NCBI RefSeq assembly: GCF_003402235.1
Contig: NZ_QEWO01000005.1
Location: 310,001-374,000 of the forward strand
Length of the DNA stretch: 64,000 nt
Direction of reading: 5' to 3'
Source: Parahaliea mediterranea
GTDB lineage: Bacteria > Pseudomonadota > Gammaproteobacteria > Pseudomonadales > Halieaceae
The notes under the pieces were generated by a model. That model did no database searches and was not told the DNA's origin. It saw only the letters and a list, made by a program, of their open reading frames with translations. Below, in pieces: positions 11,748 through 39,062 of this stretch; the first letter of the stretch is position 1; the number at the start of each line of letters is the position of its first letter. Position numbers and translations under genes: made by a program.

Positions 11748-12533
11748 ATGACTATGCATCGATTCAAGAATGTATTGATCGCTGCGGTGGTTACCACAGG
11801 CGCCGTTTTCGGCTCTGTGGCAGCCGTGCAAGCCAATACACTGGACTCCATTCTTCAGGTGGGCGAAGCCAAGAACGATGCTGCGCGCAAATCGCAGCAG
11901 AAGATCGACCGCCTCGCCGATGAAACCCGCGACCTGCTCGACGACTACAAAACGGTCAACAAGCAGATCGACGGCCTGAAAGTCTACAACGGCCGTCTGC
12001 AGAAGCAGATCGACAACCAGATTGCCCGCATTGCCGACATCGATGATTCCATCGCCCAGGTGACTGTGATTCAGCGCCAGATGACCCCCCTGGTCATCCG
12101 CATGATTGACGGCCTGGAAAAATTCGTTGAGCTGGATGTGCCCTTCCACATGGAAGAGCGCCAGCAGCGTATTGACTTCCTCCGTGCCAATCTGGATCGC
12201 TCCGATGTCAGCGTGGCCGAAAAATTCCGTCAGGTTCTCGAAGCCTACAAGATCGAAGCCGAGTACGGCCGCAAGCTCGATGCCTATAAAGGCAGCGTCG
12301 AAATCGACGGCGTAGAGCGCGACGTTAACTTCTTCCGCGTGGGTCGCATTGCCCTGCTGTACCAGACAACAGACACCGAAATCTCCGGTGCCTGGGACCA
12401 ATCCACTCGCAGCTGGGTTCCTCTGGACCGCGGCGAATACCGCAACGCCATCATGAAAGGCCTGCGTATCGCCCGTAAGGAAGCGTCCATTGACCTTATG
12501 AACCTGCCCATTGAAGCGCCGGAGGCTCAGTAA
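11748..12533 (+). CDS. DUF3450 periplasmic protein of a TonB energy-transduction operon
   Basis: This 261-residue protein has a signal peptide (MTMHRFKNVLIAAVVTTGAV, cleavage near VQA-NT) and a long helical region rich in Lys, Asp and Gln between residues 35 and 110 that looks coiled coil. It fits the DUF3450 family, which is found as the first gene of TtpC/ExbB/ExbD/TonB clusters in Shewanella and relatives. Its job is unknown; a role in contacting the inner-membrane complex from the periplasm is inferred from context. ATG 11748 has GGAAGGA upstream; a TTG further upstream is less likely. Its stop overlaps the next ATG by one base. Confidence 0.85.
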   Translation: MTMHRFKNVLIAAVVTTGAVFGSVAAVQANTLDSILQVGEAKNDAARKSQQKIDRLADETRDLLDDYKTVNKQIDGLKVYNGRLQKQIDNQIARIADIDDSIAQVTVIQRQMTPLVIRMIDGLEKFVELDVPFHMEERQQRIDFLRANLDRSDVSVAEKFRQVLEAYKIEAEYGRKLDAYKGSVEIDGVERDVNFFRVGRIALLYQTTDTEISGAWDQSTRSWVPLDRGEYRNAIMKGLRIARKEASIDLMNLPIEAPEAQ

Positions 12534-13927
12534 TGAAATTCAAGTTTGTAACCGCCGCCGCTGTCGCTTTGAGCGGTGCCCTGACCCTCACCGCGGGCTT
12601 TGCCCAGGCGCAGGAGCCGAAGTCTCTGGAGGAACTGCTGCAGTTCGTCAAGCAGGGCCAGGTTTCTGAAGCGAAAGAAAACCGCGCCCGCGAGCAGCGC
12701 TTTGCCCAGGCCAAGGCCGAGCAGGCCAACCTGCTGAAACAGGCCGAGAACGAGCGCGCCCGCCAGGAACAGCTGTCGACTGAACTGGAAGTGACCTTCG
12801 AAGAGAACGAACTGGCCGTCGCCGAAAAGCAGAAAGTGCTGAAAGAGCGTCTGGGTACCCTGGCCGAACTGTTCGGTCACCTCACCTCCACCGCTGGCGA
12901 CCTGTCCAGCAACCTGGAGAACTCACTGACCAGCTCCCAGTACCCCAACCGCCAGGAATTCCTGGACAGCCTGATCAAGAAGATGGCGGACAGCGACAAG
13001 CTGCCCAGCATCGAGGAGATCGAGCGCGTCTGGTATGAACTGCAGCGCGAAATGGTTGAATCCGGCAAGGTCGTGACCTTCAACGCCGAAATCGCCAAGC
13101 CCAACGGTGACAAGGTGGAGCAGCAGGTTACCCGTATTGGCCTGTTCAACGTGGTATCCGAAGAAGGCAAATACCTGCAGTTCGTGCCGAGCAAAGGCAC
13201 CCTGGAAGAACTGTCTCGCCAGCCTTCCGGCCCCTACCAGGGCTGGGCCAAGGATCTAGTGGCCTCCACCGGTGGCGACGGCTTCCAGAAGTTTGGTGTT
13301 GACCCCACTGGCCCGACGGGCGGCTCCTACCTGGCGGCGCTGATCAACAGCCCCAACCTGGAAGAGCGCTGGCACCAGGGTGGCTACGTTGGCTACGCAA
13401 TCACCGCGGTGGGTGTGTTCGGCTTCCTGCTGGCCATCTGGCGCCTGATTGTCCTGACCGGCGTGAGCGCGAAAGTGAGCAGCCAGCTCAAGTCTGACAA
13501 GGCCAACACCAACAACCCGCTGGGCCGTGTGCTGAAAGTGCACGAAGACAACCCCAGCATGGACACCGAAACCCTGGAGCTGAAGCTCGACGAGCAGATC
13601 CTCAAGGAAACCCCCAAGCTGGAAAGTGGTCTGACTCTGTTGAAGATCATTTCCGCAGTAGCCCCGCTCATGGGTCTGCTGGGTACGGTGACCGGTATGA
13701 TTATCACCTTCCAGGCCATCACCATCTTCGGTGCGGGTGATCCCAAAGCCATGGCTGGCGGTATTTCCGGCGCCCTGGTAACTACCGTACTGGGTCTGCT
13801 GGTTGCAATCCCCACCGTACTGCTGCACACCATCGTGAATGGCCGCGCCCAGCGCATCATCCACGTGCTGAACGAGCAGAGCACCGGGATCATTGCCGAG
13901 CACACCGAGGGCACCCGAGGTAAATAA
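12533..13927 (+). CDS. MotA/TolQ/ExbB proton-channel family protein, TtpC-like
   Basis: TtpC-like proteins are the extra component of vibrio-type TonB2 systems. This 464-residue protein has a signal sequence ending near AQAQE, a periplasmic coiled-coil region (about 30-125), a globular periplasmic part (about 130-280), a membrane segment near 288-305 (YAITAVGVFGFLLAIW) and a C-terminal ExbB/TolQ domain. That domain has LLKIISAVAPLMGLLGTVTG and GGISGALVTTVLGLLVAIP. The large N-terminal extension separates it from ordinary ExbB. It is followed two bases later by a second, short ExbB. Confidence 0.9.
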   Translation: MKFKFVTAAAVALSGALTLTAGFAQAQEPKSLEELLQFVKQGQVSEAKENRAREQRFAQAKAEQANLLKQAENERARQEQLSTELEVTFEENELAVAEKQKVLKERLGTLAELFGHLTSTAGDLSSNLENSLTSSQYPNRQEFLDSLIKKMADSDKLPSIEEIERVWYELQREMVESGKVVTFNAEIAKPNGDKVEQQVTRIGLFNVVSEEGKYLQFVPSKGTLEELSRQPSGPYQGWAKDLVASTGGDGFQKFGVDPTGPTGGSYLAALINSPNLEERWHQGGYVGYAITAVGVFGFLLAIWRLIVLTGVSAKVSSQLKSDKANTNNPLGRVLKVHEDNPSMDTETLELKLDEQILKETPKLESGLTLLKIISAVAPLMGLLGTVTGMIITFQAITIFGAGDPKAMAGGISGALVTTVLGLLVAIPTVLLHTIVNGRAQRIIHVLNEQSTGIIAEHTEGTRGK

Positions 13928-13929
13928 TT

Positions 13930-14457
13930 ATGGTCTGGTTCGATAGTGCTTACGAGGCCGTCTCCCGCTTTATGGACATGGGCGGGAACGTACTCTGGCT
14001 GATCGCCATCCTGCTTTTCGTGATGTGGGCACTGATCTTCGAACGAGTCTGGTATTTCAAGGCCGGGTGGAAGAAAGACGTGGCGCAAGCCATTTCCACC
14101 TGGGAGGCGCGCCCGGAACGTAAGTCCTGGGCCGCCCACCAGATTCGCGACAAGCTCATTTCCGAAGCGCGGATGCAGATCAACCAGTATCTGCCTGTCA
14201 TCAAAACCATGGTGGCCTTGTGCCCCCTGCTCGGGTTGCTGGGAACGGTGACCGGGATGATCGAGGTGTTCAACATTATGGCGGTTACCGGTGGTGGTGA
14301 CGCCAAGTCCATGGCCGGCGGTGTATCGCGGGCCACCATCCCCACCATGGCCGGCATGGTCGCCGCCCTGTCAGGGGTATTTGCCAACACCTACGTCACC
14401 CGTGTTGCCCAGCGCGAAAGCGAGTTCCTGGAAGACAACCTGACCACCGATCACTAA
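13930..14457 (+). CDS. exbB: ExbB biopolymer transport protein
   Basis: ExbB is the inner-membrane scaffold of the proton-driven motor that powers TonB. The 175-residue protein is the short form, with three membrane segments: about 16-36 (MGGNVLWLIAILLFVMWALI), about 95-115 (ALCPLLGLLGTVTGMIEVF) and about 135-155. The conserved GLLGTVTGMI and GGVSRATIPTMAGMVAALSG match ExbB/TolQ. It lies between the TtpC-like gene and exbD with small gaps, so it forms one complex with them. Confidence 0.93.
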   Translation: MVWFDSAYEAVSRFMDMGGNVLWLIAILLFVMWALIFERVWYFKAGWKKDVAQAISTWEARPERKSWAAHQIRDKLISEARMQINQYLPVIKTMVALCPLLGLLGTVTGMIEVFNIMAVTGGGDAKSMAGGVSRATIPTMAGMVAALSGVFANTYVTRVAQRESEFLEDNLTTDH

Positions 14458-14469
14458 GAGAGCAAATTC

Positions 14470-14874
14470 ATGCGCAGGAACAATCAAGCAGCTGCGGAAG
14501 ATGAAGCCCAGATCGACCTGACGCCCATGCTGGACGTCGTGTTCATCATGCTGATCTTCTTCATCGTAACCGCTTCTTTCATTAAAGAAGCCGGGGTCGA
14601 AGTGAACCGCCCTGAGGCCTCCACGGCTCAGCCCAAGGAAAACGTCAACATCCTGGTGGCCATCACTGCGACCAATGAAATCTGGATGGACAACCGTCGT
14701 ATTGATGTACGTGCCGTGCGCGCCAACATCGAACGCCTGCACGCGGAAAACCCCAAGGGTGCCGTGGTGATCCAGGCGGACAACGAGTCCAATACCAAGA
14801 CCGTAACCGGAGTGCTGGATGCCGCGCGTGAAGCGGGTGTCTACGACGTGTCTCTGGCAACTGAAGATAAGTAG
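14470..14874 (+). CDS. exbD: ExbD biopolymer transport protein
   Basis: ExbD is the single-pass partner of ExbB. The 134-residue protein has a short cytoplasmic start, then IDLTPMLDVVFIMLIFFIVT at about residues 17-36. The Asp in PMLDVVF is the proton-carrying residue of the family. The periplasmic domain follows to the C-terminus. The position between exbB and tonB supports the role. Confidence 0.94.
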   Translation: MRRNNQAAAEDEAQIDLTPMLDVVFIMLIFFIVTASFIKEAGVEVNRPEASTAQPKENVNILVAITATNEIWMDNRRIDVRAVRANIERLHAENPKGAVVIQADNESNTKTVTGVLDAAREAGVYDVSLATEDK

Positions 14875-14879
14875 TCGTT

Positions 14880-15488
14880 ATGAGTCGTAATTTAGTCAGA
14901 CTGATCCTCGGTGCGTTGCTCGCGATCCCGGTTGCTGGCGGTCTGTTCTTCATTATGCAGTATCTGATCGCCACGGCTGATCCGGAAATCGACGATACCA
15001 AACAGCGCAAGCTGGCGGATATCCACATGCCGGAACGTGAGATCGAGACGCAGCGTACGGAGCAGAAGCCGGACAAGGTAGACGATCCCGAAGAGCCACC
15101 GCCGGATCTCGATACCCCTGATATTGATATGGACATGGATACCAACGTGGTCAATACCGCGCCGGCTCAGGAAGTGGCCATTGAAATCAGCTCCAGCGGC
15201 ATGGCCGCAACCGATGGCGAATACCTGCCCATCGTGAAGGTTGCGCCCATCTACCCGCGCCGTGCGCAAACCCGTGGTATCACCGGTTACTGCATCGTGG
15301 AGTACACGGTGACCAAGTCCGGTTCCATTCGTGACCCGCGCCCGGTCGATTGCCAGCCCTCCGGTGTGTTCGAAAGCGCCTCCGTCAAGGCCGCCGAGAA
15401 GTTCAAGTACAAGCCCCGCGTCGTCGATGGCGAAGCGATCGAAGTGGCGGGTGTACAGAACAAGTTCACCTACGAGCTGGAACAGTAG
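14880..15488 (+). CDS. tonB: TonB energy transducer
   Basis: TonB spans the periplasm and pulls on the TonB boxes of outer-membrane receptors. The 202-residue protein has an N-terminal anchor (LILGALLAIPVAGGLFFIM), a short Pro/Asp-rich linker (about 60-90, with PEEPPPDLDTPDIDMDMD) and a TonB C-terminal domain (IVKVAPIYPRRAQTRGITGY onward). The linker is short compared with E. coli TonB, as in TonB2 proteins, which may explain the need for the TtpC-like partner. It could serve both TonB-dependent receptors in this window; that is inference. Confidence 0.93.
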   Translation: MSRNLVRLILGALLAIPVAGGLFFIMQYLIATADPEIDDTKQRKLADIHMPEREIETQRTEQKPDKVDDPEEPPPDLDTPDIDMDMDTNVVNTAPAQEVAIEISSSGMAATDGEYLPIVKVAPIYPRRAQTRGITGYCIVEYTVTKSGSIRDPRPVDCQPSGVFESASVKAAEKFKYKPRVVDGEAIEVAGVQNKFTYELEQ

Positions 15489-15503
15489 AACGGTTGATGC
15501 GTT

Positions 15504-16841
15504 ATGAAAATGTCTAAACCCCACACCTGGCTTCGGCCCGCCCTGCTGGCGGTGCCCGTGGTTGCGGTCCAGGTCGCCGTGTCCCAGTTGCAGGCTGACC
15601 TCGGCTACGCCCCCATGGGGGCAGCCCTGGCCCAGGAGCAACAGGCCGACCAGCGCGAAACGCGCAAGACGCCCGCCCTGCGGAACAAGGTCTATGAAAA
15701 GCTGGCCGAGGCCCAGGCCGCTGCTGAAGCTCAGGACTTCAACACCGCGGCCAAGATTCTCGACGAGATGCTGGCGGGTCGTCGCGACAACGAGCTGAAC
15801 TCCTACGAGTTGGCCAACGTGTACAACCTGTATGCGTTTATCCACTACTCGCGGGAGGACTATCCCAAAGCCCTGCAGGCCTATGAGAATGTCATCAAGC
15901 AGCCCGACATTCCGTTGGCGATGGAAATCAATACCCGCTATACCGTTGCCCAGCTGTACTTTGTGCAGGAGCAGTGGCAGAAGGGTATCGATGCCCTGAA
16001 CAAGTGGTTCGCTATGACGGAAACGCCCAACGCCAACGCCTATGTGCTGCTGGCCCAGGGTTATTACCAGATGAAGGACTACGACAAGTCACTTTCCAAT
16101 GTGAACAAAGCCATCAGCATGTACCGTGCCGACGGCAAGATTCCCAAGGAACAGTGGTTGAACCTGGCCCGCTTCCTCTACTTCGACAAAGGCGACGTGA
16201 ACAACGCAGTGGCCGTGCTCGAGGAACTGCTCACCCACTATCCGAAAAAGGACTACTGGGTACAGCTGTCGCACATGTACGGCGAGCAGAAGAAAGAAAC
16301 CGACCAGCTCTCCGCCATGGAGACGGCCTACGTCCAGGGCATGCTCGACAGGGGCACTGAGCTGGTGACTATGGCCTACCTCTACCTGAACGGCGAGGTG
16401 CCTTGGAAGGCGGCGCAGGTTGTCGATAAAGGCCTGAAAGCCGAAAAGGTTGAAGGCACGTCGAAGAACTACGAGATCCTCGGCAACGCCCTGCGCCAGG
16501 CACAGGAGGTCGAAAAGGCCATCCCTGCCATGGAGCAGGCGGCGGCCAAGTCTGACGACGGCGAGCTGTACGCCCGCCTCGGCAACATCTATCTTGACGG
16601 TGAGCAGTACGACGAAGCCATCGAGGCCATCAACAAGGGCTTAAAGCGTGGTGGCGTGAAGCGCCCTGATACCGCACGCCTGGTGTTGGGCATGGCCTAC
16701 TTCGAGAAAAAGCAGTACGCCAAGGCGCGGGATGCCTTCCAGGCAGCCGGCCGTGACAAGCGTTCTGCCCAGTTCGCCGAGCAGTGGATCAAGTACATGG
16801 ATTCAGAACTGGACCGCCAGAAGAAACTGGCCGAAGGCTGA
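15504..16841 (+). CDS. TPR-repeat periplasmic protein of the TonB operon
   Basis: The 445-residue protein has a hydrophobic N-terminus (about 10-25; the signal cleavage site is unclear, perhaps near ALAQ-EQQ) and then repeated helical hairpins of TPR type over most of its length. Examples are NVYNLYAFIHYSREDYPKAL, AYVLLAQGYYQMKDYDKSL and ELYARLGNIYLDGEQYDEAI. A TPR gene ends many TtpC-type TonB operons. It probably works as a protein-binding scaffold in the periplasm. A strong terminator follows. Confidence 0.88.
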   Translation: MKMSKPHTWLRPALLAVPVVAVQVAVSQLQADLGYAPMGAALAQEQQADQRETRKTPALRNKVYEKLAEAQAAAEAQDFNTAAKILDEMLAGRRDNELNSYELANVYNLYAFIHYSREDYPKALQAYENVIKQPDIPLAMEINTRYTVAQLYFVQEQWQKGIDALNKWFAMTETPNANAYVLLAQGYYQMKDYDKSLSNVNKAISMYRADGKIPKEQWLNLARFLYFDKGDVNNAVAVLEELLTHYPKKDYWVQLSHMYGEQKKETDQLSAMETAYVQGMLDRGTELVTMAYLYLNGEVPWKAAQVVDKGLKAEKVEGTSKNYEILGNALRQAQEVEKAIPAMEQAAAKSDDGELYARLGNIYLDGEQYDEAIEAINKGLKRGGVKRPDTARLVLGMAYFEKKQYAKARDAFQAAGRDKRSAQFAEQWIKYMDSELDRQKKLAEG

Positions 16842-16907
16842 TCCAATCGCGGGAGCCCTGTGCTCCCGCTGCGGCGGGCCTGTGCGCCAGCTGCGCCAGT
16901 CCCACCA

Positions 16908-16938
16908 ACAAAAAAGGAGCCAATCGGCTCCTTTTTTG
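16908..16938. terminator. bidirectional rho-independent terminator
   Basis: GGAGCC (16916-16921) and GGCTCC (16926-16931) form a stem around AATC, flanked by A6 on one side and T6 on the other. The A and T runs extend the pairing and give a U-tract in both directions, so it can end both the TonB operon and the convergent cold shock gene. Confidence 0.9.
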
Positions 16939-16965
16939 TGGCTCCGCCCACAAGGGGCAGCTTAA

Positions 16966-17172
16966 TCAGATGGCGACAACATTCTCGGCCTGAGGGCCTT
17001 TCTGTCCGTCGGTCACGTTGAACTGGACTTTCTGTCCGTCCGCCAGGGTTTTGAACCCATCACCCTGGATGGCACTGAAGTGAACGAAAACGTCAGGGCC
17101 GTTTTCACGCTCGATAAAGCCGAAGCCCTTGGTTTCGTTGAACCACTTTACGGTGCCGGTTTCTGTAGACAT
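16966..17172 (-). CDS. cold shock protein (CspA family)
   Basis: This is a 68-residue single-stranded nucleic-acid-binding OB-fold protein. RNP1 is KGFGFIER and RNP2 is DVFVHFSAI, with the usual opening [12 protein letters not shown]. An open frame adds 17 residues upstream, but the ATG at 17172 gives the normal family length. The upstream region is AT-rich and contains a small hairpin (GGCAT/ATGCC around a 7-base loop, about 17192-17209 on the plus strand), consistent with a leader. Which Csp paralogue it is cannot be told from sequence alone. Confidence 0.95.
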
Positions 17173-17440
17173 AAGTATTACCTGTATAACGTTGGCATTC
17201 CTGTGGATGCCGGGATTAATCATTATTTATGATCAACGAACCGAGGAACTTTGGGAACTTCGACCGCGCGCATAAATACCGCTGATCACTCAGCACCTTT
17301 GAGTGTATCACTGCTTAAGGAACCGTATAGTCGCTTGGCCAGAACTTATTTTGGGAATATTGCGGCTTTCTGTGGCCTTCAGGCCGGATTCATCCTGGGG
17401 TCGCACATTGGCCAGCCACAAGTGAGGGGATGAGAGCCCG

Positions 17441-18097
17441 GTGCGCGTACTGTTAGTGGAAGACGATCAACAGCTCGGCGAGTCGCTGGAGGCCGCCCTG
17501 CGCCTGGAGGGCTATGCGGTGGACTGGCTGCGCTCCGGCGAGCCGGTGCGCGCTGCCCTGGGCGCCACCCCCTACGATGTGCTGGTGCTGGATCTGGGGC
17601 TGCCCGGTGTCCCCGGGATGCAGGTGCTGCGCCAGTTGCGCGCCGACAAGCACCACCTGCCGGTGCTGTTGTTGACTGCGCGCAATACCCTGGCAGACCG
17701 GGTGGACGGGCTGGATGGCGGGGCGGACGATTACCTGGGCAAGCCCTTTGATATGGACGAGCTGTTTGCCCGCCTGCGTTCGCTGCTGCGACGGGAGTCG
17801 GGCTATCGCAGCCAGCTGCTGGAGGCGGCGGGTATTGCCTTGGACCCGGTGAATCGCACGGTGGAGGCGGGCGGCGAGGCGGTAACCCTCACCGCCCGCG
17901 AGTTTGCCATTCTGGAAATCCTGATCCGCAATGCCGGGCGCTTTGTGTCCCGGGCCCGGCTGGAAGAGGGTATCTACAGCTGGGGGGAGGAGGTGGGTTC
18001 CAATACCGTGGAGGTGTACGTTTCGCGCCTGCGTAAACGCTTTGGCAGTGAGGCCATCGAAACCATGCGCGGCGTGGGCTACAGGATGCACCGCTAA
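17441..18097 (+). CDS. OmpR-family response regulator (QseB/PmrA-like)
   Basis: The 218-residue regulator starts at GTG and reads MRVLLVEDDQQLGESLEAAL. The receiver has the acidic pocket (EDD at 7-9), the phospho-acceptor Asp51 in VLVLDLGLPG, and the conserved Lys in DYLGKPFDMDEL. The C-terminal winged helix (about 125-215) has TLTAREFAILEILIRN and VEVYVSRLRKRFG. Its stop overlaps the sensor kinase start by one base. The signal it responds to is not evident; the overall type resembles QseB or PmrA. Confidence 0.93.
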   Translation: MRVLLVEDDQQLGESLEAALRLEGYAVDWLRSGEPVRAALGATPYDVLVLDLGLPGVPGMQVLRQLRADKHHLPVLLLTARNTLADRVDGLDGGADDYLGKPFDMDELFARLRSLLRRESGYRSQLLEAAGIALDPVNRTVEAGGEAVTLTAREFAILEILIRNAGRFVSRARLEEGIYSWGEEVGSNTVEVYVSRLRKRFGSEAIETMRGVGYRMHR

Positions 18098-30371: not shown

Positions 30372-31928
30372 ATGCCCCGATTACCGCACTTTTTTCTTGT
30401 TTGTGCCCTGGCCCTTGGCCTGGCGAGCCCCTTCTCCGGCGCCGCAGAGCCGGCCACTGACAGCGCCCAAAACCCGGCTAAGGCTCAGGCAAAGGCCGAC
30501 ATCCCCGAGCCCCTGCATGCCGAGTCCAAGCAGCGGGTGAAGATCGATGGCAAGACCATCGACCTCAAGGCCACCGCCGGCCAGCTGCTGATGAAGGACG
30601 ACAAGGGAGAGCCCATCGCCCTGTTCGGCTACACCGCCTATGAAAAAGAAGGCGCCGACCGGCGCACCCGGCCGGTGCTGTTTGCCTACAACGGCGGGCC
30701 GGGGTCTGCGTCCATGTGGTTGCACATGGGCATCCTTGGCCCCCAGCGCACCGTGGTGAATGATGGCGATTTCGCCACCGAAGGCCCCTTCCGCCGGGTC
30801 AACAACGCCTTCAGCATTCTCGATCTTGCCGACGTGGTGATGATCGACCCGGTGGGCACGGGATTTTCCATCCCGGTGGGGGAGGCCAAGGGCGAGGACT
30901 TCTGGGGAGTGGACCAGGATATTGCCTCGGTGTCCGACTTCATCGCCCGCTGGACCACCGACAACGGCCGCTGGCAGTCGCCCAAGTACCTGCTGGGTGA
31001 AAGCTACGGCGGTATTCGCAGCGGCGGCGTGGCCTACCAGCTGCTGCAGACTCACTCCATTGCCCTGAACGGGGTGATCCTGGTGTCACCCTACATGGAC
31101 TTTGCCGCCGGCAATGCCGGCCTGGCGATGGATTTGCCCTACGTCAATTACTTCAGCACCTACGCCGCCACCGCCTGGTATCACAAGGCCATCGACAACC
31201 GCCCGGACAACCTGCAGGCCTTTTTGCGCCAGGCCGAGGACTTTGCCGAGAACGTTTACGCGCCGGTGCTCTTCAAGGGCGCCAGCGCCACCGCCGAGGA
31301 GCGCCAGCGGGTGCTTGCGGGCATGGAACGCTTTACCGGCATCAGCGCCGACTACTGGGACCGCGCCAACCTGCGGGTGGACGAGGGGCGCTTTGCCAAG
31401 GAACTGCTGCGCGATCGCCGCCAGACCACCGGGCGTATCGATTCGCGTTTTGTGAACGACGGCCTTAACCACATTGGCGAGCAATTCACCTACGACCCCT
31501 TCTTCCCGGCCGTGGGCCCCGCCTTTGTGGCCACCTTCAATGATTACTACCGCGAAGTGCTGGGGGTGAAGACCGATCGCAAATACGTGACCTCCGGCGG
31601 CCTGTTCATGCGCTGGGACAACACCCACGCCCAGCCCGGCCAGACCCAGTACGAGAAAGTCCCCTACGCCAACACCGCCGTGGATTTGGCCCACACCATG
31701 GTGCAAAACCCCAACATGCGCCTGCTGGTGCAGCAGGGCTATTACGATTTGGCCACGCCCTACGGCGCCACCGATCACTTCCTCAACCACCTGCCGATTC
31801 CGGAGCGGCTGCGCGACCACATTACCGTGGAGCACTACGAGGCGGGGCACATGATGTACATCCACCCGCCGTCCATGAAGAAGTTCCGGGACGACCTGGC
31901 GGCCTTTATTGCCGCCGGCCAGGGCTGA
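30372..31928 (+). CDS. secreted serine carboxypeptidase (peptidase family S10)
   Basis: The 518-residue protein has a signal peptide (HFFLVCALALGLASPFSGAA). S10 landmarks are present: the oxyanion segment LFAYNGGPGSASMWLHMG, the nucleophile Ser211 in LLGESYGGIRSGG, the Asp in GYYDLATPYGATDHF and the His in HYEAGHMMY. S10 enzymes remove C-terminal residues from peptides at acid pH. Such a protein exported to the periplasm suggests peptide scavenging. The stop is 22 bases from the stop of the convergent tetR-type gene. Confidence 0.9.
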   Translation: MPRLPHFFLVCALALGLASPFSGAAEPATDSAQNPAKAQAKADIPEPLHAESKQRVKIDGKTIDLKATAGQLLMKDDKGEPIALFGYTAYEKEGADRRTRPVLFAYNGGPGSASMWLHMGILGPQRTVVNDGDFATEGPFRRVNNAFSILDLADVVMIDPVGTGFSIPVGEAKGEDFWGVDQDIASVSDFIARWTTDNGRWQSPKYLLGESYGGIRSGGVAYQLLQTHSIALNGVILVSPYMDFAAGNAGLAMDLPYVNYFSTYAATAWYHKAIDNRPDNLQAFLRQAEDFAENVYAPVLFKGASATAEERQRVLAGMERFTGISADYWDRANLRVDEGRFAKELLRDRRQTTGRIDSRFVNDGLNHIGEQFTYDPFFPAVGPAFVATFNDYYREVLGVKTDRKYVTSGGLFMRWDNTHAQPGQTQYEKVPYANTAVDLAHTMVQNPNMRLLVQQGYYDLATPYGATDHFLNHLPIPERLRDHITVEHYEAGHMMYIHPPSMKKFRDDLAAFIAAGQG

Positions 31929-31950: not shown

Positions 31951-32604
31951 TCAGCGCGCGCGCTTTTTGCACACCTTGCGAAAACCTGCGGCCACAAAAG
32001 GGATCATGTGGTCGTAGGCCGCTTCAAAATCATCTGAGGTGCAGCGCCCGCCCGACAGCTTGTCGATGCGCCCGGTCTGGGCCAGGGTGAGGGTGAGGGC
32101 GCCGGACAGGTTGTTGTAGCACCAGTACAGGTCCTCGTCGGTAGCCTCCGGCAGGGCCCTGCGCAGCGCTTCGATGAATTCCTGCACCAGCGCATCAAAC
32201 AGCTTGCTCATCATGCGCGGCCCCCAGTAGGGGGAGTTGTTGATGTAGGCGATCAGCGCGAGATAGTTGCGCCAGCCCGGGTCGCCGGTTTCCTGGGCCA
32301 GTTCCAGTGGCCGCAGGAAGGCTTCGATAATCTGCTCGACACTCGGCCCGCGCTTGCCGGCTTTGGCCTGGCACCGGTGCAGGGCGTCGCGGCGGGCATC
32401 GTTCAGCAGGGCCGCCCGGCGGTCGAACACCGCCTGGAACAGGTCCAGCTTCTTGCCGAAGTGGTAGCTGGCCAGGGCCACATCCACCCCGGCGCCGCTG
32501 GCGATCTGGCGCAGCGTTACCCCGTCGTAGCCATGCAGGGCGAACAATTCCTCGGCAACATCGAGGATTTTCTCGCGCTTGCTCGGGCTGTCTTTCCTGC
32601 TCAT
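31951..32604 (-). CDS. TetR-family regulator, likely repressor of the adjacent uptake genes
   Basis: This 217-residue regulator has a TetR N-terminal domain: REKILDVAEELFALHGYDGV, then the helix-turn-helix VTLRQIASGAGVDVALASYHF at about residues 29-49, and FGKKLDLFQAVF. The C-terminal ligand domain (about 70-210) has no family I can name with confidence. It is divergent from the symporter gene, with a perfect 10-4-10 palindrome between them. Two more copies of the core palindrome sit before the TonB receptor, so it probably controls itself and the whole cluster. The ligand is likely the transported compound or its CoA ester (inference). Confidence 0.92.
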   Translation of the reverse strand: MSRKDSPSKREKILDVAEELFALHGYDGVTLRQIASGAGVDVALASYHFGKKLDLFQAVFDRRAALLNDARRDALHRCQAKAGKRGPSVEQIIEAFLRPLELAQETGDPGWRNYLALIAYINNSPYWGPRMMSKLFDALVQEFIEALRRALPEATDEDLYWCYNNLSGALTLTLAQTGRIDKLSGGRCTSDDFEAAYDHMIPFVAAGFRKVCKKRAR

Positions 32605-32683
32605 CGGTACTGCGCTCTCCCTGTGCCCTGGTCACCGTTGCCGCCACCGCAGCGGCCGAAGGGCATCGACAATAGCACAGAAA

Positions 32684-32707
32684 CAATTTCAACGGTTGTT
32701 GAAATTG
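32684..32707. promoter_or_regulatory. palindromic operator 1 (putative TetR site)
   Basis: CAATTTCAAC and GTTGAAATTG are perfect inverted arms around GGTT. This lies between the divergent tetR-type gene and the symporter gene. The core TTCAAC-N4-GTTGAA recurs at 34287-34302 and 34320-34335. A TTGAAA (32699-32704) inside the right arm could act as -35 for the symporter with CAGAAT (32722-32727) as -10, so binding would block it. Confidence 0.8.
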
Positions 32708-32770
32708 GGCTGGGCCTGGTACAGAATCCGCACTCCGCCGACAACAATAATCCTGCGGTGAGGTGCCAGC

Positions 32771-34237
32771 ATGACTCCCGACGTTTTCAAATACCTGGTC
32801 AGCGCCGCCTACGTGGCGCTGGTGTTCTACCTGTCCTGGGTGGGCATGCGCCGCACCCGCGACGTGCGCGGCTTTTCCATCGGCAATAAGGACATGAGCC
32901 CCTATGTGATCGGCATTACCCTCGCCGCGTCCATTGCCTCCACCGCCACCTTTGTCATCAACCCGGGCTTTGTTTACGTTCACGGGCTGTCCGCCTACCT
33001 GCACTACGGGGTGGCGGGCTCGCTGGGCATTCTCACCGCCTTTCTGGTACTGACGCGCGGCTTCCTGCGCTTGGGCGAAAGCCATAACGCGCTGACCATT
33101 CCCCAGTGGATTTACTGCCGTTACCGCCACCGGGGGCTGAGTCTGTTTTTTGCCTTTATCAACCTGCTGTCCATCACCTTTGTGGTGCTGATCCTGGTGG
33201 GCTGCAGCCTGCTGGTGACGGGGCTGTTTCCGGTGGACCAGAAAACCGCCCTGGTGCTGGTGCTGCTGTTTGTTTTCTCCTACGTGCTGATGGGCGGCAC
33301 CTACGCCCACGCCTACACCAATACCTTGCAGGGGGTGATGATGATGGCGATCACCGCCCTGCTGTTTGTGCAGGGCTTCAAATACCTGGGGGATGCGCCG
33401 CTGGATGCGCTGCGCGCCGTGGGCGCCGATTACGCCGCGGCCTTCAACCCGTCCAGCGATCTCTACTTCAGCTTTTTCTCGGTGTTTCTCTCGGGCTTTA
33501 TTGTGACCTTTGCGCTGATGCTGCAGCCGCACATTCTCACCAAAGTGCTGTACCTGCGCAGCGAGCGGGACATCGGCAAGTTCATCGGCACCACCGTGGT
33601 GGTGGGCACCCTGTTCACCCTGATGCTGATGCTCGGCTTTTACGCCCGCCTGGCGGGGCTGGAGATCGACGCCCAGGACACTGTGGTGCGCGAGTACCTG
33701 CTGCACGAGTTTTCCGGCGACCCGCTCGGCCAGTACCTGCTGGTGCTGATCTTCCTCACCCTGCTGGCGGCGGGCATGAGTACCCTCGATGGCATTCTGG
33801 TGTCGCTGTCGGCGATGGTGGTGAACGACATTGTGGAGCCGCTGTTTGGTGCTCGCATCAACGGCCTTGCCCTGTCGCGCTGGGTGCTGGTGGCGGTCGG
33901 GGTGATTGGTGTGGCGCTGGCCTGGAACCCACCGCCGCTGATCGGGCTGTTTGCCCAGAAAGGTGTCTACGGCCTGGCGGCCGCTTCCACCGTGCCCATT
34001 CTGTTCGGGGTGCTGTTGCGCCGCGATATGCCCCTGTGGGTGGTGGGTGGCGCGGCGCTGGTGGCGCTGTTGACGCACCTCGGGCTCAACCTCAGTGGCC
34101 GGGTGGCCAACCCGGCGGTGTCGGCCACTTGGGCGATTCTGGCCTCGCTGCTGGTGGGCGTTGCCGGCCTGGTTTGGCATCGCGGGCTTGCCGCGGGGCG
34201 CGGCAGCCGCGCCGGAGAATCCGCGCCGGGCGCTTGA
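32771..34237 (+). CDS. sodium:solute symporter (SSS family)
   Basis: The 488-residue inner-membrane protein has about 13 hydrophobic segments and SSS-type features: FSIGNKDMSPYVIGITLAAS near residues 36-55 and LLAAGMSTLDGILVSLSAMV near 335-354, the second being the usual SSS signature region. The substrate cannot be read from sequence; the family carries sugars, amino acids, short carboxylates and others. The linked acyl-CoA synthetase and TonB receptor favour a carboxylate (inference). It is preceded by operator 1. A GTGAGGTG-like ribosome site is about ten bases before the ATG. Confidence 0.9.
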   Translation: MTPDVFKYLVSAAYVALVFYLSWVGMRRTRDVRGFSIGNKDMSPYVIGITLAASIASTATFVINPGFVYVHGLSAYLHYGVAGSLGILTAFLVLTRGFLRLGESHNALTIPQWIYCRYRHRGLSLFFAFINLLSITFVVLILVGCSLLVTGLFPVDQKTALVLVLLFVFSYVLMGGTYAHAYTNTLQGVMMMAITALLFVQGFKYLGDAPLDALRAVGADYAAAFNPSSDLYFSFFSVFLSGFIVTFALMLQPHILTKVLYLRSERDIGKFIGTTVVVGTLFTLMLMLGFYARLAGLEIDAQDTVVREYLLHEFSGDPLGQYLLVLIFLTLLAAGMSTLDGILVSLSAMVVNDIVEPLFGARINGLALSRWVLVAVGVIGVALAWNPPPLIGLFAQKGVYGLAAASTVPILFGVLLRRDMPLWVVGGAALVALLTHLGLNLSGRVANPAVSATWAILASLLVGVAGLVWHRGLAAGRGSRAGESAPGA

Positions 34238-34279
34238 GGCTACCGGTTCAAGTTGCCTGTTCAGACTGCCGGTTCAGGC

Positions 34280-34308
34280 TTGACAATTCAACAATCGTTG
34301 AATATCTT
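34280..34308 (+). promoter_or_regulatory. strong-looking sigma70 promoter of the receptor operon
   Basis: TTGACA (34280-34285, consensus -35) and TATCTT (34303-34308) are separated by exactly 17 bases. Operator 2 fills the spacer. The expected transcription start is near 34315, about 75 bases before the receptor ATG. Confidence 0.75.
34286..34303. promoter_or_regulatory. palindromic operator 2 inside the promoter spacer
   Basis: ATTCAAC and GTTGAAT are perfect 7-base arms around AATC. The site occupies the space between the -35 and -10 boxes, the classic position for a repressor that excludes RNA polymerase. Confidence 0.8.
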
Positions 34309-34319
34309 TTCTGCACAAA

Positions 34320-34335
34320 TTCAACAAACGTTGAA
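34320..34335. promoter_or_regulatory. palindromic operator 3 near the transcription start
   Basis: TTCAAC and GTTGAA are perfect 6-base arms around AAAC. The centre is 33 bases from the centre of operator 2, about three helical turns, so two bound dimers would lie on the same face. Confidence 0.75.
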
Positions 34336-34390
34336 ACCGCTCGCAAGGCGGACAACACTTGATACGATAACGCTAACGACAGGTGTCACT

Positions 34391-36622
34391 ATGAAGACTA
34401 CGCTCAAGCGGGCGCCCCTCGCCCTTGCTGTATCCCTTGCCTCTGCGCTGAGTGCGGCTCCGTCGCTCGCCCAGCAAGCCGGTGCCACCGCCCTCGAAGA
34501 AGTTGTGGTGACCGCGCGCAAGCGCACCGAAAACCTGCAGGACGTGCCCATAGCCGTCAGTGCGTTTTCCGCCGCGGACCTCGCCATCCAGGGCGTGGAC
34601 GACATCACCGACCTGCAATACAGCCTGCCCAACACCACCCTGCAGGTGAGCCGTGGCACCAACACCACCCTCACCGCCTACATTCGCGGTATCGGCCAGC
34701 AGGACCCACTGTGGGGCTTTGAGCCCGGTGTTGGCATTTACGTGGACGATGTCTACATCGCCCGCCCCCAGGGCGCGGTGCTCGACGTGCTGGATGTGGA
34801 AAACATCGAAGTGCTGCGCGGGCCCCAGGGCACCCTGTACGGCAAAAACACTATCGGCGGCGCGCTCAAATACACCACCCGGCGAGTGGGCAACGAGCCC
34901 ACCTTTGAAGTGGAAGGCACTGTGGGCGACTACCAGCGCCGCGACCTGAAGGTGATGGGCTCGGTGCCGATTATCGAGGACACGCTGTTTATCAGCGGCG
35001 GCGCAGCGGTGCTCAAGCGCGACGGCTACGGCGAGTTTCGCAACACCGGCGCCGACAACTACAACAAGGATGTGGCTACCGGCCACCTGAAACTGGAGTG
35101 GCGGCCCAGCGACAGCCTGGCCTTGATACTGGCCGGCGACAAAACCCGCGATACCTCCAACGCCAAGGGCGGTTATCGCCTCACGCCGAGCCTGATCACC
35201 GGCCAGCAGCCCTACAGCAGCGTGTTCGACAGCGACACCAGCCTGCCCACCGACAACCTGGTGGAAACCGAGGGCGCGTCGCTGCACGCCATCTGGGACA
35301 TCAGTGACCGCTGGCAGCTCAAGTCCATCACCGCCTACCGCGAAGGGCGCACCGATACCCCCATCGACTTCGACGCCACCGCGGTTGCCAGCGTGGACGT
35401 GCCGGCGATCTACGAAGACGACCAGACCACCCAGGAGTTCCAGCTCAACTACAGCGGCGATCGCTTCAATGCCGTTGGCGGGCTGTACTACTACGAGGGC
35501 AATGCCTGCGGCGTGTTCGACCTGATTCTGGGTGTGTTCAACACCACCGTGGAAAACGGCGGCTGCGTGGATACCGAGAGCTATTCCGCTTACTTCCAGG
35601 GCGCTTACGATGTCACCGAGGCGCTGAGCCTGAGCTTTGGCGGCCGCTACACCCAGGACGAAAAATCCGCCAGTGTGTACCGCAATGTGTACCTGGGCGC
35701 GCGCTACCCGGATAGCGGCGGCGGTACCCTGGTTGCCGTCCAATCGGACTTTGACGACAGCGACAGCTGGGGTGAATTCACCCCCCACCTGGGTGTGCAG
35801 TACACTTTCAACGACAACCTGATGGCCTACGCGTCCTATACCTCCGGTTTCAAGTCCGGTGGCTACGACATGCGCGCCAATATCTCCGTCAACCCGAACG
35901 GCGACGAGCCTTTTGATCCGGAAACAGTGGATGCCTATGAAATCGGCTTCAAGTCGACCCTATGGGACCGTCGCCTGCGCCTGAACGCGGCGGCATTCTA
36001 CAACGACTACACCGATATGCAGGTCACCGTGCAGCGCGCCGTGGGCGGCGCCGACTTTGCCTCGCAGGTGCTCAATGCCGGCGCGTCCGAAATGCAGGGC
36101 TTCGAACTGGAACTGGTGGCGGCACTGACCGACGCGTTGACCTTGAGCGCCACCTACGGTTATATCGATGCCGAGTTCACCGAGCTTGAGTGGTTCGACC
36201 CGAACGCCCAGGCCAACGTGGATGTTTCCGACCAGTGGGTGATCTCCAATACCCCCGAGTACGTCTACAACATCGGCGTGCAGTACGACCTGGACATCGG
36301 TGGCTGGGGCACCACGTTGCTGGCCAGCGCCGCCTACCGCGACGACGTGCACATCTTCGAAGTTCCCTCGGTGCTGGATGAAGAGGGCTACACCCTCTAC
36401 AACGCCAGCATCGTCCTGCGCTCGCCCAATGAGCGCTGGACCCTCGGCCTGCACGGCAAAAACCTGAGCGATGAGGAGTACCGCATCGCCGGCTATAACT
36501 TCGCGGCCACCTATGACGACCAGGGTAATCTGGTGGCGGCAGGCCTTGGCGGCGAAGACACGGTGACGGGCTTCTATGGCGACCCGCGCACCATCGCCTT
36601 CACCGTGAATTACGCCTTCTGA
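34391..36622 (+). CDS. TonB-dependent outer-membrane receptor
   Basis: The 743-residue protein has a signal peptide (LALAVSLASALSAAPSLAQ) and an early EEVVVTARKR that acts as or lies beside the TonB box. The plug domain (about 45-160) contains VEVLRGPQGTLYGKNTIGG-like sequence (IEVLRGPQGTLYGKNTIGGA). The beta barrel runs to the terminal Phe (TIAFTVNYAF). The open frame extends 46 residues upstream, but that stretch holds the promoter and operators, so ATG 34391 is chosen. The type matches the large TonB receptor family of Halieaceae-like and sphingomonad genomes that takes up aromatic or lipid-like compounds, not classic siderophore receptors; this is an impression. Confidence 0.92.
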   Translation: MKTTLKRAPLALAVSLASALSAAPSLAQQAGATALEEVVVTARKRTENLQDVPIAVSAFSAADLAIQGVDDITDLQYSLPNTTLQVSRGTNTTLTAYIRGIGQQDPLWGFEPGVGIYVDDVYIARPQGAVLDVLDVENIEVLRGPQGTLYGKNTIGGALKYTTRRVGNEPTFEVEGTVGDYQRRDLKVMGSVPIIEDTLFISGGAAVLKRDGYGEFRNTGADNYNKDVATGHLKLEWRPSDSLALILAGDKTRDTSNAKGGYRLTPSLITGQQPYSSVFDSDTSLPTDNLVETEGASLHAIWDISDRWQLKSITAYREGRTDTPIDFDATAVASVDVPAIYEDDQTTQEFQLNYSGDRFNAVGGLYYYEGNACGVFDLILGVFNTTVENGGCVDTESYSAYFQGAYDVTEALSLSFGGRYTQDEKSASVYRNVYLGARYPDSGGGTLVAVQSDFDDSDSWGEFTPHLGVQYTFNDNLMAYASYTSGFKSGGYDMRANISVNPNGDEPFDPETVDAYEIGFKSTLWDRRLRLNAAAFYNDYTDMQVTVQRAVGGADFASQVLNAGASEMQGFELELVAALTDALTLSATYGYIDAEFTELEWFDPNAQANVDVSDQWVISNTPEYVYNIGVQYDLDIGGWGTTLLASAAYRDDVHIFEVPSVLDEEGYTLYNASIVLRSPNERWTLGLHGKNLSDEEYRIAGYNFAATYDDQGNLVAAGLGGEDTVTGFYGDPRTIAFTVNYAF

Positions 36623-36637
36623 AGAGCGAGGCGGTGA

Positions 36638-38200
36638 ATGATGTTCAGTGGTTTTGAATCACACGCCCCCCTGCTGCCGGAAATCCTGGCCCTGCACGGG
36701 CGCTGGCGCGGCGAGCGCGACGCCCTGGTGTGCGAAGGGCAGCGCCTGAGCTGGCGCGAGTTCTGCGCCGCCAACCACCGCTTTGCCCACGCCCTGCACG
36801 GGGCCGGCATCGGCCGGGGCGAGCGGGTGGGGGTGGTCATGTCCAACGGCGTGGAGATGGCGGTGACCCTGTTCGGTTGCATGGCGGCCGGCGCGGTGTC
36901 GGTGCCAATCAACCTGTCGGTGGCGGACGAGGCGATTGCGGCCATGCTCGCCGATGCCGGTGTGCGTGCCCTGGTGGTGAGCGCCGACCAGCAGCCGCGT
37001 CTTCACGCGCTGCGGCACAGGCTGGGGCCGTCGATCACGCTGCTGGTTACCACCGGCACCGCCGCGGGTGACTGGCAGTGCTTCCGGCAGTTTTGCGATG
37101 GCCAGCCGGAGGGCCTGCCGGATAGTGGCCTGCAGGGTACTGACTTCCTGAACATTATTTACAGTTCCGGTACAACCGGCATGCCAAAAGGCATTGTGCA
37201 CACCCACGCCGGGCGCCGCGACTGGGCCTACGACCTGGCCATCGCCCTGCGCTACCACGGCGCGGCCCGCACCCTGCTCACCATTGGCCTGTACTCGAAT
37301 ATTTCCTGGGTGGCGATGCTGTGCACGGTGCTGGGCGGCGGCACGCTGGTGATTCACCCGCGCTTTGATACCGACGCCTTTCTGGATACGGTGGCGGCAG
37401 AGCGCATTACCCACACCGCCATGGTGCCCATCCAGTTCCAGCGCGTGGTGGAGGCGATGGGGCAGCGCGAGCACGATGTCAGTTCCCTGCAGGCCATGAT
37501 GAGCTGCGGCTCGCCCCTGCACGAGCGCCTGAAGCGCAGTATTTTCCAGGCCTTTCCCTGCGGCATTATTGAGCTTTACGGGCTCACCGAGGGCATTATC
37601 ACCACCCTGGATACCGAGGATGCCGAGGGGCGCTGGTCGTCGGTGGGCAAGCCGCTGCTGGGCACAGACATCTGTATCGTGGATGAGGGCGGCCGCAAGC
37701 TCGGGCCGGGGGAGTCCGGCGAAGTGGTGTCGCGCGGGCGCATCACCATGCCTGGCTATCTTGGCCGTGACGAGGCCAGCCGCGAGGCCGAGTACATCGA
37801 TGACAACGGCGTGCAGTGGCTGCGCTCGGGCGATATCGGCATGGTGGACGAAGCGGGCTTTCTGTACATCGTCGATCGCAAGAAGGACATGATCCTGAGC
37901 GGCGGGCAGAACGTCTATCCGCAGGACATCGAGGCCGTGCTGGTGGAACACCCGGCGGTGGACGACGTGGCGGTGATCGGCGCCACCAGCCAGCGCTGGG
38001 GCGAAACCCCGGTGGCGCTGGTGGTGGCAGTGTCCGGCGGCGCCGATGCCGGGGCCATTCGCGCCTGGGCCAACGAGCGGCTGGGCAAGCAGCAGCGCCT
38101 GAGTGATGTCATACTGGTGGACGAACTGCCGCGCAACCCCAATGGCAAAATCCTCAAGCGGGAACTGCGGCGCACCTTTGCCGAATTAAGCTATGCCTGA
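36638..38200 (+). CDS. acyl-CoA synthetase (AMP-forming, ANL superfamily)
   Basis: The 520-residue enzyme activates a carboxylic acid to its CoA thioester through an acyl-AMP. The P-loop is IIYSSGTTGMPKGIVHTH at about residues 169-186. The A5-type motif is IELYGLTEGI, and WLRSGDIGMVDEAGFLYIVD and DRKKDMILSGGQNVYPQDIE are the hinge and A8 region. The final NPNGKILKRELR holds the catalytic Lys. It lies 15 bases after the receptor gene and overlaps the hydrolase gene by eight bases. The acid it activates is unknown; fatty or aryl acids are both possible. Confidence 0.93.
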   Translation: MMFSGFESHAPLLPEILALHGRWRGERDALVCEGQRLSWREFCAANHRFAHALHGAGIGRGERVGVVMSNGVEMAVTLFGCMAAGAVSVPINLSVADEAIAAMLADAGVRALVVSADQQPRLHALRHRLGPSITLLVTTGTAAGDWQCFRQFCDGQPEGLPDSGLQGTDFLNIIYSSGTTGMPKGIVHTHAGRRDWAYDLAIALRYHGAARTLLTIGLYSNISWVAMLCTVLGGGTLVIHPRFDTDAFLDTVAAERITHTAMVPIQFQRVVEAMGQREHDVSSLQAMMSCGSPLHERLKRSIFQAFPCGIIELYGLTEGIITTLDTEDAEGRWSSVGKPLLGTDICIVDEGGRKLGPGESGEVVSRGRITMPGYLGRDEASREAEYIDDNGVQWLRSGDIGMVDEAGFLYIVDRKKDMILSGGQNVYPQDIEAVLVEHPAVDDVAVIGATSQRWGETPVALVVAVSGGADAGAIRAWANERLGKQQRLSDVILVDELPRNPNGKILKRELRRTFAELSYA

Positions 38201-39062
38201 CCCTGTGGATGTGTTCTACCCCGCCCCCGACGGGCTGACCCTCTACGCCTGCGACTTCAACCACGCCGGTGCCGACGCCCCTGTGCTGCTGTGCCTGCAC
38301 GGCCTGACCCGCAACAGCCGTGATTTCACCCGCCTGGCATCCGACCTGGAGGCGAACTACCGGGTGATCTGCGCCGACCAGCGCGGCCGCGGGCGCTCCG
38401 ACTACGACAGCAACCCCGCCAACTACCAGCCGGCCACCTACGTGCAGGATATGTTCGCCCTGCTGGATTATCTCGCCGTACCCAAGGTGGCCGTGATCGG
38501 CACCTCCATGGGCGGGTTGATGGGCATGATGATGGGCGCCCTGCAGCCGGGGCGCATCAGCGGCCTGTTGCTGAACGACATTGGCCCCCAGGTGGAGCCG
38601 GCCGGGCTGGCGCGCATTCAGTCCTACGTGGGCAAGAGCGGCCCAGTGAGCAACTGGGACGAGGCCCTGGCCCAGTGCCGCGCGATCAACGGCGCGGCCT
38701 TTGCGGATTTCAGCGAACAGCAGTGGCGCGACTTTACCCGCGGCCTGTACCGGGACGAGGCGGGCGTGCCGGTGCTGGACTACGACCCGGCCATTGCCCA
38801 GCCTATCGACGCCGCGCGCGAAAATGCCGTGCCGCCAGACCTGTGGCCGCTGTTCGAGGGCCTGGCCATGCCGGTGCTGGTGGTGCGCGGGGCATCGTCC
38901 GACATTCTCTCTGCGGCCACCGCCGCCGCCATGTGCGCGCGTGGCGCCAACTGCCGCCTTCAGCAGGTGCCCCGGCGCGGCCATGCGCCCACCCTGGACG
39001 AGGCTGATGCGCGCCAGGCCCTCACCGCCTGGCTGGGGCAGCTGGCTGACCCAACCGCCTAA
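38193..39062 (+). CDS. alpha/beta hydrolase
   Basis: This 289-residue cytoplasmic hydrolase has the nucleophile elbow GTSMGG with Ser105. The oxyanion strand is LLCLHGLTRNSRDF and the catalytic His is in RRGHAPTLDEAD near residue 267. ICADQRGRGRSDYDSNP is typical of the family close to esterases and C-C hydrolases. Its start lies inside the synthetase gene (eight-base overlap), so it is the last gene of the receptor operon. A role in releasing the acid from an imported ester is attractive but inferred. Its 3' end overlaps the glycosyltransferase gene on the other strand by four bases. Confidence 0.9.
   Translation: MPDPVDVFYPAPDGLTLYACDFNHAGADAPVLLCLHGLTRNSRDFTRLASDLEANYRVICADQRGRGRSDYDSNPANYQPATYVQDMFALLDYLAVPKVAVIGTSMGGLMGMMMGALQPGRISGLLLNDIGPQVEPAGLARIQSYVGKSGPVSNWDEALAQCRAINGAAFADFSEQQWRDFTRGLYRDEAGVPVLDYDPAIAQPIDAARENAVPPDLWPLFEGLAMPVLVVRGASSDILSAATAAAMCARGANCRLQQVPRRGHAPTLDEADARQALTAWLGQLADPTA

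Follow-up and report, generated by a model that had tools for sequence, protein, structure and literature searches.

A five-gene cluster occurs within a 64,000-nucleotide stretch of the Parahaliea mediterranea genome (Gammaproteobacteria, Halieaceae; RefSeq assembly GCF_003402235.1, contig NZ_QEWO01000005.1, positions 310,001 to 374,000 of the forward strand), which is referred to here as the window. The genome, termed G000, comprises 5.09 Mb in 29 contigs, and the window is G000:C25:310001-374000. The cluster consists of a gene for a TetR-family regulator, divergent from one for a sodium/solute symporter, which is followed by genes for a TonB-dependent receptor, an AMP-forming acyl-coenzyme A (CoA) synthetase and an alpha/beta hydrolase (Table 1). 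A sequence-only reading had proposed this arrangement, and all five open reading frames are confirmed with their orientations, as are, by Pfam, their families; the eight-base overlap of the synthetase and hydrolase genes that it noted follows from the coordinates (38200 and 38193). Comparative data presented here suggest that the cluster is probably a scavenging regulon, under a single regulator, for the breakdown products of extracellular poly(3-hydroxybutyrate) (PHB).

Table 1. Genes and regulatory sites of the cluster (positions in the window)
Feature	Position	Strand	Remarks
TetR-family repressor, PsrA-like C-terminal domain	31951..32604	-	TetR_C_30; divergent from symporter
Operator O1, TTCAAC-GGTT-GTTGAA	32688..32703		TetR/symporter intergenic region
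SSF-family Na+/solute symporter, predicted 3-hydroxybutyrate/oligomer importer	32771..34237	+	SSF (PF00474)
Sigma-70-like promoter, TTGACA-17-TATCTT, for the receptor-synthetase-hydrolase transcript	34280..34308	+	10/12 matches
Operator O2, TTCAACAATCGTTGAA	34287..34302		Receptor leader, inside promoter-like site
Operator O3, TTCAACAAACGTTGAA	34320..34335		Receptor leader, 33 bp after O2
TonB-dependent receptor, predicted oligomer importer	34391..36622	+	Plug and TonB barrel, above Pfam gathering scores
Class I AMP-forming acyl-CoA synthetase, predicted 3-hydroxybutyryl-CoA synthetase	36638..38200	+	AMP-binding and AMP-binding_C
Alpha/beta hydrolase, predicted 3-hydroxybutyrate-oligomer hydrolase	38193..39062	+	Abhydrolase_1, above Pfam gathering score

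At the protein level, the regulator has TetR_N and TetR_C_30 domains that score above the Pfam gathering values, and the symporter matches PF00474 with 102.7 bits (cut-off 22.8). The longest open reading frame of the receptor opens at a TTG at position 34253, but a signal-peptide-like start was recognized by eye at ATG 34391. The latter is most likely the translation start, since the leader at 34253-34390 contains a promoter-like site and two operators. The synthetase displays the motif YSSGTTGMPKG and a catalytic lysine, Lys504, and the hydrolase has a Ser105, Asp237 and His264 triad; these residues were assigned by eye and are kept in at least 97% of 28 and 47 sequences, respectively. No signal peptide was seen by eye in the hydrolase. 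None of the five proteins reaches the cut-off of any NCBIfam model, so these proteins by themselves do not reveal the function. An attempt to derive the substrate in this way failed, as matches to Protein Data Bank (PDB) chains were generic for the synthetase and hydrolase, and the symporter had no match at E 0.001. The closest solved relative of the synthetase is FadD13 (3r44), with a near full-length match. A second synthetase paralogue, 49% identical, is found in the same genome at G000:C24:27175-28722.

The palindrome TTCAAC-N4-GTTGAA is present exactly three times in the whole genome, and all three copies are in the cluster. O1 is the core of a perfect 10-bp inverted repeat, CAATTTCAAC-GGTT-GTTGAAATTG, and tandem pairs such as O2/O3 recur in relatives. 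When one mismatch is allowed, 0.03 sites are expected by chance, and three were reached in none of 100 shuffled sequences. Promoter-like sites of the quality listed in Table 1 number two in the region versus 1.5 expected in shuffles; it is the position over the operators alone that makes the promoter call convincing. As the receptor leader contains both this site and O2/O3, the receptor, synthetase and hydrolase genes probably form a second TetR-controlled transcript.

The operator is also a property of related genomes. Its core is present in 54 of 58 intergenic regions between the TetR and symporter genes (locus L086 duplicates L129; L093, L094, L134 and L135 were left out, their TetR gene being over 600 bp distant). 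All 52 genomes with the symporter have at least one operator site and 33 have three, versus one site in 3 of 20 symporter-free kin. With the pattern reversed as a control, 8 of the 52 genomes had 10 sites in all, 6 of the 20 had seven and G000 had none, which indicates that a single stray site means little. Accordingly, single sites in G001 (C39), G025 (C18), G010 (C38), G033 (C1:252757), G028 and G031 are attributed to chance; the open reading frames in or near which they fall show, by eye, no link to PHB. Further sites occur in G004 and at G037:C126:150.

Of 120 genomes from the GTDB family, 40, representing 16 of 28 genera, have the symporter at E ≤1e-30. At E ≤1e-60 it is present in 17 of 244 genomes drawn from the order, 3 of 369 from the class and 1 of 398 from the phylum, this last being the window itself; the three draws include some family genomes again. 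Plasmid records gave distant matches only. Relatives of the symporter are 57-92% identical, some of them outside the phylum, with Parahaliea aestuarii the closest named relative (92%), and the TetR proteins encoded beside them are 57-94% identical to that of the window. The complete order, TetR(-), symporter(+), receptor(+), synthetase(+), hydrolase(+), is found at one locus in 29 of the 40 symporter genomes, the window counted. The other 11 comprise four genomes of one genus with only the TetR, symporter and hydrolase genes in the locus, two loci (L050, L067) whose fetched region or contig stops before the hydrolase, one (L064) with TetR not on the contig, and four that stop earlier, at contig ends. 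Among the 29, the symporter frame is broken in G001 (L041:6597-7491) and gapped in G013 (L040:9160-10612), with the rest of the cluster present, and these defects may be an assembly error or a real loss. One gene was matched as two pieces in L043 (hydrolase) and in L055 (TetR), and about 2.9 kb separates the symporter from the receptor in L049.

The synthetase is closely tied to the symporter. An orthologue (60-100% identity) is found in 38 of the 40 symporter genomes versus 1 (G084) of the 80 others in the same draw (Fisher 1e-27, uncorrected for kinship); matches of 49-51% in G000:C24 and G038 were counted as paralogues and excluded. The two symporter genomes lacking a match are G057 and G060, the latter with a truncated copy at the edge of a contig. 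The separated pieces of split clusters carry the same operator. In the genus that has no receptor or synthetase gene in the locus, two genomes were followed, and the receptor-synthetase pair was found about 178 kb away (G041) or on another contig (G024), with two tandem operators in front and a synthetase 65% identical. These properties make it extremely improbable that the five genes are unrelated neighbours with no joint function: the gene order is shared by most family loci, the operators are common to the parts and are retained after a split, and the synthetase orthologue is nearly confined to symporter genomes. The earlier proposal of a dedicated, self-contained TetR-controlled pathway for uptake, ester cleavage and CoA activation is thus supported by conserved gene neighbourhood and shared operators. 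A search for the gene order in other genomes, which that proposal had named as its check, shows that most related genomes with these genes have them side by side. Open reading frames similar to acyl-CoA dehydrogenase and enoyl-CoA hydratase genes adjoin the split-off pair at L181:636-9843, and an amidohydrolase-like one lies beside the pair at L182:5541-11456 (both by eye).

The compound was given as unknown in the sequence-only reading. This can now be replaced, as the loci of relatives point to a short-chain polyhydroxyalkanoate (PHA), i.e., to PHB and (R)-3-hydroxybutyrate oligomers. A set of 85 loci was compared, consisting of 80 symporter relatives plus L088, L089, L090, L093 and L094, with flanks of up to 8 kb that are in many cases shortened by contig ends. 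In nine of these (L089, L090, L093, L094, L121, L123, L135, L151, L157), the symporter has a PHB-depolymerase-like gene at a distance of up to about 8 kb. Ten proteins from the nine loci pass TIGR01840 (cut-off 107.85) as well as NF050058, the model for extracellular type 1 short-chain-length PHA depolymerase (152-182 bits, cut-off 150). The gene for 3-hydroxybutyrate dehydrogenase (BDH; TIGR01963, cut-off 307) is found at 334-373 bits in at least 12 of the 85 loci (L090, L108, L110, L113, L116, L119, L120, L161, L164, L165, L172, L174), a lower bound, as reading frames for short-chain dehydrogenases/reductases (SDRs) were scored in part. For two of the locus dehydrogenases, the best solved relatives are D-3-hydroxybutyrate dehydrogenases. 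Locus L090 has, in about 12 kb, genes for BDH, hydrolase, receptor, symporter, depolymerase, a LysR-like protein (by eye), both subunits A and B of a 3-oxoacid CoA-transferase and a BktB-type thiolase. In outline, this set would lead all the way from extracellular PHB to acetyl-CoA.

The operator itself leads to further PHB genes in other genomes. In G021, a member of the same family that has the cluster, two extra tandem operators are situated 134 and 171 bp before a depolymerase reading frame of 685 amino acids on another contig, which passes NF050058 (174 versus 150 bits) and TIGR01840 (146.5 versus 107.85). Two operators precede a depolymerase reading frame by 62 and 94 bp in G607, and one lies just before the longest reading of such a frame in G702. 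In G050 the operator precedes the gene for a PRK08217-type SDR (410 versus 298 bits).

Alternatively, the cluster may serve another ester or hydroxy acid, such as other hydroxyalkanoates, fatty-acid esters or an aromatic ester, and the PHB genes of relatives would then be additions. Family models assign neither the hydrolase nor the synthetase, the regulator has a PsrA-type C-terminal domain (PsrA senses fatty acids), a class 2 lipase gene is found beside the Acanthopleuribacter relative of the cluster, and there is no genome-wide link between PF10503 and the symporter. However, in several distinct regions of the symporter tree the cluster has depolymerase and BDH genes next to it, and in G021, from the window's own family, it is a PHB depolymerase gene that has the same operator in front. 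Another substrate therefore appears improbable.

How 3-hydroxybutyrate would enter metabolism is suggested by the distribution of the synthetase and BDH. The 52 symporter genomes include 44 with the synthetase (38 genomes of the family draw, G060, G165, G230, G243, G607 and G702), seven without it in the locus, and one (G057) that was not assigned. BDH over the cut-off, anywhere in the genome, is found in 1 of the 44 (G050) versus 6 of the 7 cluster genomes without synthetase, the latter judged from the 20-kb locus only (Fisher 3e-6, uncorrected for kinship). The seventh genome, G340, has a protein with 304.8 bits, just under the cut-off of 307. In all seven, every operator site lies in the cluster. 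At the locus level, the synthetase orthologue was seen in none of 13 BDH loci, although L116, which breaks off right behind the symporter, does not allow a judgement. The thirteenth, L106, has a BDH-like gene (294 versus 307 bits) between receptor and hydrolase, the place of the synthetase in its kin. G216 and G243, of one genus, are opposite in this respect. The symporter tree (86 rows, quick method) was scored for local gene content only, with split or truncated loci counted as without the gene; it shows at least 10 changes in synthetase presence and at least five in that of BDH. Zero to two of five independent pairs on well-supported branches are informative, all in the expected direction; this comparison has no power, and lineage effects are possible.

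Genes for PRK08217-type SDRs are present in four synthetase loci (L093, L094, L135, L154). Because synthetase and BDH are nearly exclusive, and because SDRs of this type are found in the loci or behind the operators of some synthetase genomes, activation would precede oxidation; most simply, the synthetase would act on 3-hydroxybutyrate itself, with oxidation following at the CoA level. A different order within the same pathway is that the synthetase is an acetoacetyl-CoA synthetase which acts after an unrecognized BDH. It would correspond to the textbook route, in which 3-hydroxybutyrate is converted to acetoacetate and then to acetoacetyl-CoA by AacS or ScoAB (available part of PMC7830162), and the window genome does have many SDRs, the best with 229.8 bits to TIGR01963. 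Yet a synthetase that acts after BDH should co-occur with it, and the reverse is found, i.e., 1 of 44 synthetase genomes versus 6 of 7 without; in addition, the SDRs in the four loci and behind the G050 operator fit oxidation at the CoA level. The acetoacetyl-CoA synthetase assignment is thus considered unlikely.

From gene content, conservation, operators and the association with PHB genes, we infer the substrates of the transporters and enzymes, the inducer and the direction of regulation as follows. Extracellular depolymerases, mainly those of other organisms, would release short (R)-3-hydroxybutyrate oligomers, which would cross the outer membrane via the TonB-dependent receptor and then be carried over the inner membrane by the Na+ symporter. 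A receptor would be needed because the monomer passes porins but oligomers presumably may not. In the cytoplasm, the alpha/beta hydrolase would cleave the oligomers to 3-hydroxybutyrate, and the AMP-forming synthetase would convert this to 3-hydroxybutyryl-CoA in place of a dehydrogenase entry step. The CoA ester would then be oxidized and thiolysed by enzymes encoded elsewhere. TetR is predicted to repress two promoters through the three operators; its release would presumably be triggered by 3-hydroxybutyrate, by oligomers of it or by the CoA ester. The natural role of the cluster would be scavenging of oligomers from the PHB of other organisms. As a tentative proposal, the system may represent dedicated Gram-negative PHB-oligomer import, by means of a receptor, a Na+ symporter and a cytoplasmic hydrolase under a local TetR operator code, with a catabolic (R)-3-hydroxybutyryl-CoA synthetase that replaces BDH in Halieaceae and a host that lives mainly off the oligomers of others.

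Several points weigh against the assignment to PHB or against parts of the proposed route, among them the 20-kb limit on the seven synthetase-free genomes, the small number of informative pairs and the failure of all NCBIfam models. The operator was not found in the TetR/symporter intergenic region of L164, L167, L172 and L174, all of which have the cluster. The genome-wide frequency of PF10503 is 11 of 52 symporter genomes versus 4 of 20 symporter-free kin (Fisher 1.0). The 11 genomes have 15 matches, seven of them weak (34-44 bits), that of the window genome included; five of the 15 are within 10 kb of the symporter (one each in G216, G607 and G702, and two of four in G340), and that of G021 has operators. 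Among close kin, Haliea, Seongchinamella and Pseudohalioglobus showed no depolymerase-like gene next to the cluster. In the window genome no protein reaches the BDH cut-off, the best SDR being the one at 229.8 bits. In a genome-wide depolymerase search, made with PF10503 only, this genome has one protein, with 36.7 bits (Pfam cut-off 23), encoded on another contig with no operators; this borderline protein is just below the cut-off of NF050058 (141.7 versus 150) and well below that of TIGR01840 (58 versus 107.85). Nor does the PHB reading account for a FabH-like protein in Bacteriovorax-type loci, described below.

The host is thus at most a weak candidate for PHB degradation. No PhaC_N (PF07167) match to a PHA synthase was found in its genome at E 0.001, which makes self-made PHB an unlikely substrate; the host does not seem to store PHB by a known route. 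The single PF10503 protein has 339 amino acids and an N-terminal hydrophobic stretch, and is encoded at G000:C23:10927-11946 (L193:527-1546, minus strand). G038, of the window's genus and without the symporter, has at L185:4968-9123 a gene for a TonB receptor 47% identical to that of the window, with depolymerase (202 bits, NF050058) and BDH (323.5 bits) genes adjoining. To judge from its gene content, this is an alternative PHB set.

The standard scheme of PHA degradation includes the depolymerase PhaZ, the oligomer hydrolase PhaY, Bdh, AacS or ScoAB, and a thiolase (available part of PMC7830162); the words "transporter", "symporter" and "outer membrane" do not occur in the main text of that article. 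Functionally, the cluster looks like a variant of extracellular PHB utilization. It shares with this process ester hydrolysis followed by entry to acetyl-CoA, and its relatives have depolymerase, Bdh, ScoAB and thiolase genes. It differs in that the window cluster has neither depolymerase nor Bdh, adds a receptor, a Na+ symporter and a synthetase, and is predicted to activate before it oxidizes.

The individual components also resemble known proteins in part. The symporter shares PF00474 with PanF, PutP and ActP, and the NCBIfam models nearest to it are panF and PutP, but it scores 90 bits versus a panF cut-off of 328. The regulator has the TetR_N and TetR_C_30 domains of PsrA-type regulators, and its operator palindrome is of the general PsrA-like kind. 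It differs from PsrA in its score (94 bits versus an equivalog cut-off of 300) and appears to be a local regulator, with three sites in the genome. The synthetase is a near full-length match to AMP-forming CoA ligases of the FadD13/4-coumarate type, but passes the cut-off of no substrate-specific model, and its orthologues are tied to the cluster. AMP-forming CoA activation of a hydroxybutyrate is a feature of the 4-hydroxybutyrate-CoA ligases of archaeal CO2-fixation cycles; these act on the other isomer in a biosynthetic cycle, and the likeness is by description only.

The sequence-only reading knew of no catabolic operon with exactly this composition, and the literature is in keeping with this. 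A full-text search, taken at the level of titles and abstract starts, found no receptor, symporter or synthetase system of this kind; subscription journals were mostly outside it, and an earlier description is possible. As a storage polymer PHB is widespread among microbes, and it is also a commercial biodegradable plastic. Its depolymerases have been studied in detail, and the uptake of released oligomers by Gram-negative bacteria seems little described. The cluster offers concrete candidate genes for both membranes and a CoA-ligase route that can be tested. If the proposal is correct, the use of Bdh as a marker enzyme would miss PHB users.

Beyond the order, symporter relatives 57-65% identical are found in 21 loci of Bacteriovoracia/Bdellovibrionales/Oligoflexia, Acanthopleuribacter and Holophagae. 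In 19 of these (exceptions L153 and L173) the gene immediately before the symporter encodes another AMP-ligase (23-30% identical). A FabH-like gene lies upstream in 17, and the one tested passes PRK06840. Thus, the link between symporter and ligase is wider than the window cluster. A distinct conserved cluster that shares the symporter consists of genes for a hydrolase, a FabH-like PRK06840 protein, an SDR, a hydrolase and an AMP-ligase (L142:5089-10004, L150:5141-9997, L169, L171); its hosts are Bacteriovoracaceae, Halobacteriovorax, Acanthopleuribacter and Holophagae. In Acanthopleuribacter and Holophagae a large reading frame is situated downstream, which is a TonB receptor where tested (L171). 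An exported hydrolase and a class 2 lipase were tested in Acanthopleuribacter, and similar reading frames are present in Holophagae. The Bacteriovoracaceae variant was considered as an OleABCD-like olefin system, but this was dropped, as the SDR is FabG-like and the FabH-like protein passes PRK06840. Acanthopleuribacter pedis has two contigs (L169, L170) with identical symporter proteins and a FabH-like gene at the same distance, which reflects a recent duplication or an assembly effect.

Upstream of the cluster, a gene for an S10-type peptidase (30372-31928, plus strand) adjoins the TetR gene. A homologue is near TetR in 8 of 39 family loci checked; perhaps this represents old synteny rather than function. 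Downstream, in convergent orientation, are genes for a protein with no Pfam match and a Wzy/O-antigen-ligase-like protein. Elsewhere in the window, positions 12001-18000 have a G+C content of 58-60% versus 62-72% in the rest, and this stretch holds genes for a MotA/TolQ/ExbB-type protein (12533-13927) and a tetratricopeptide repeat (TPR) protein (15504-16841).

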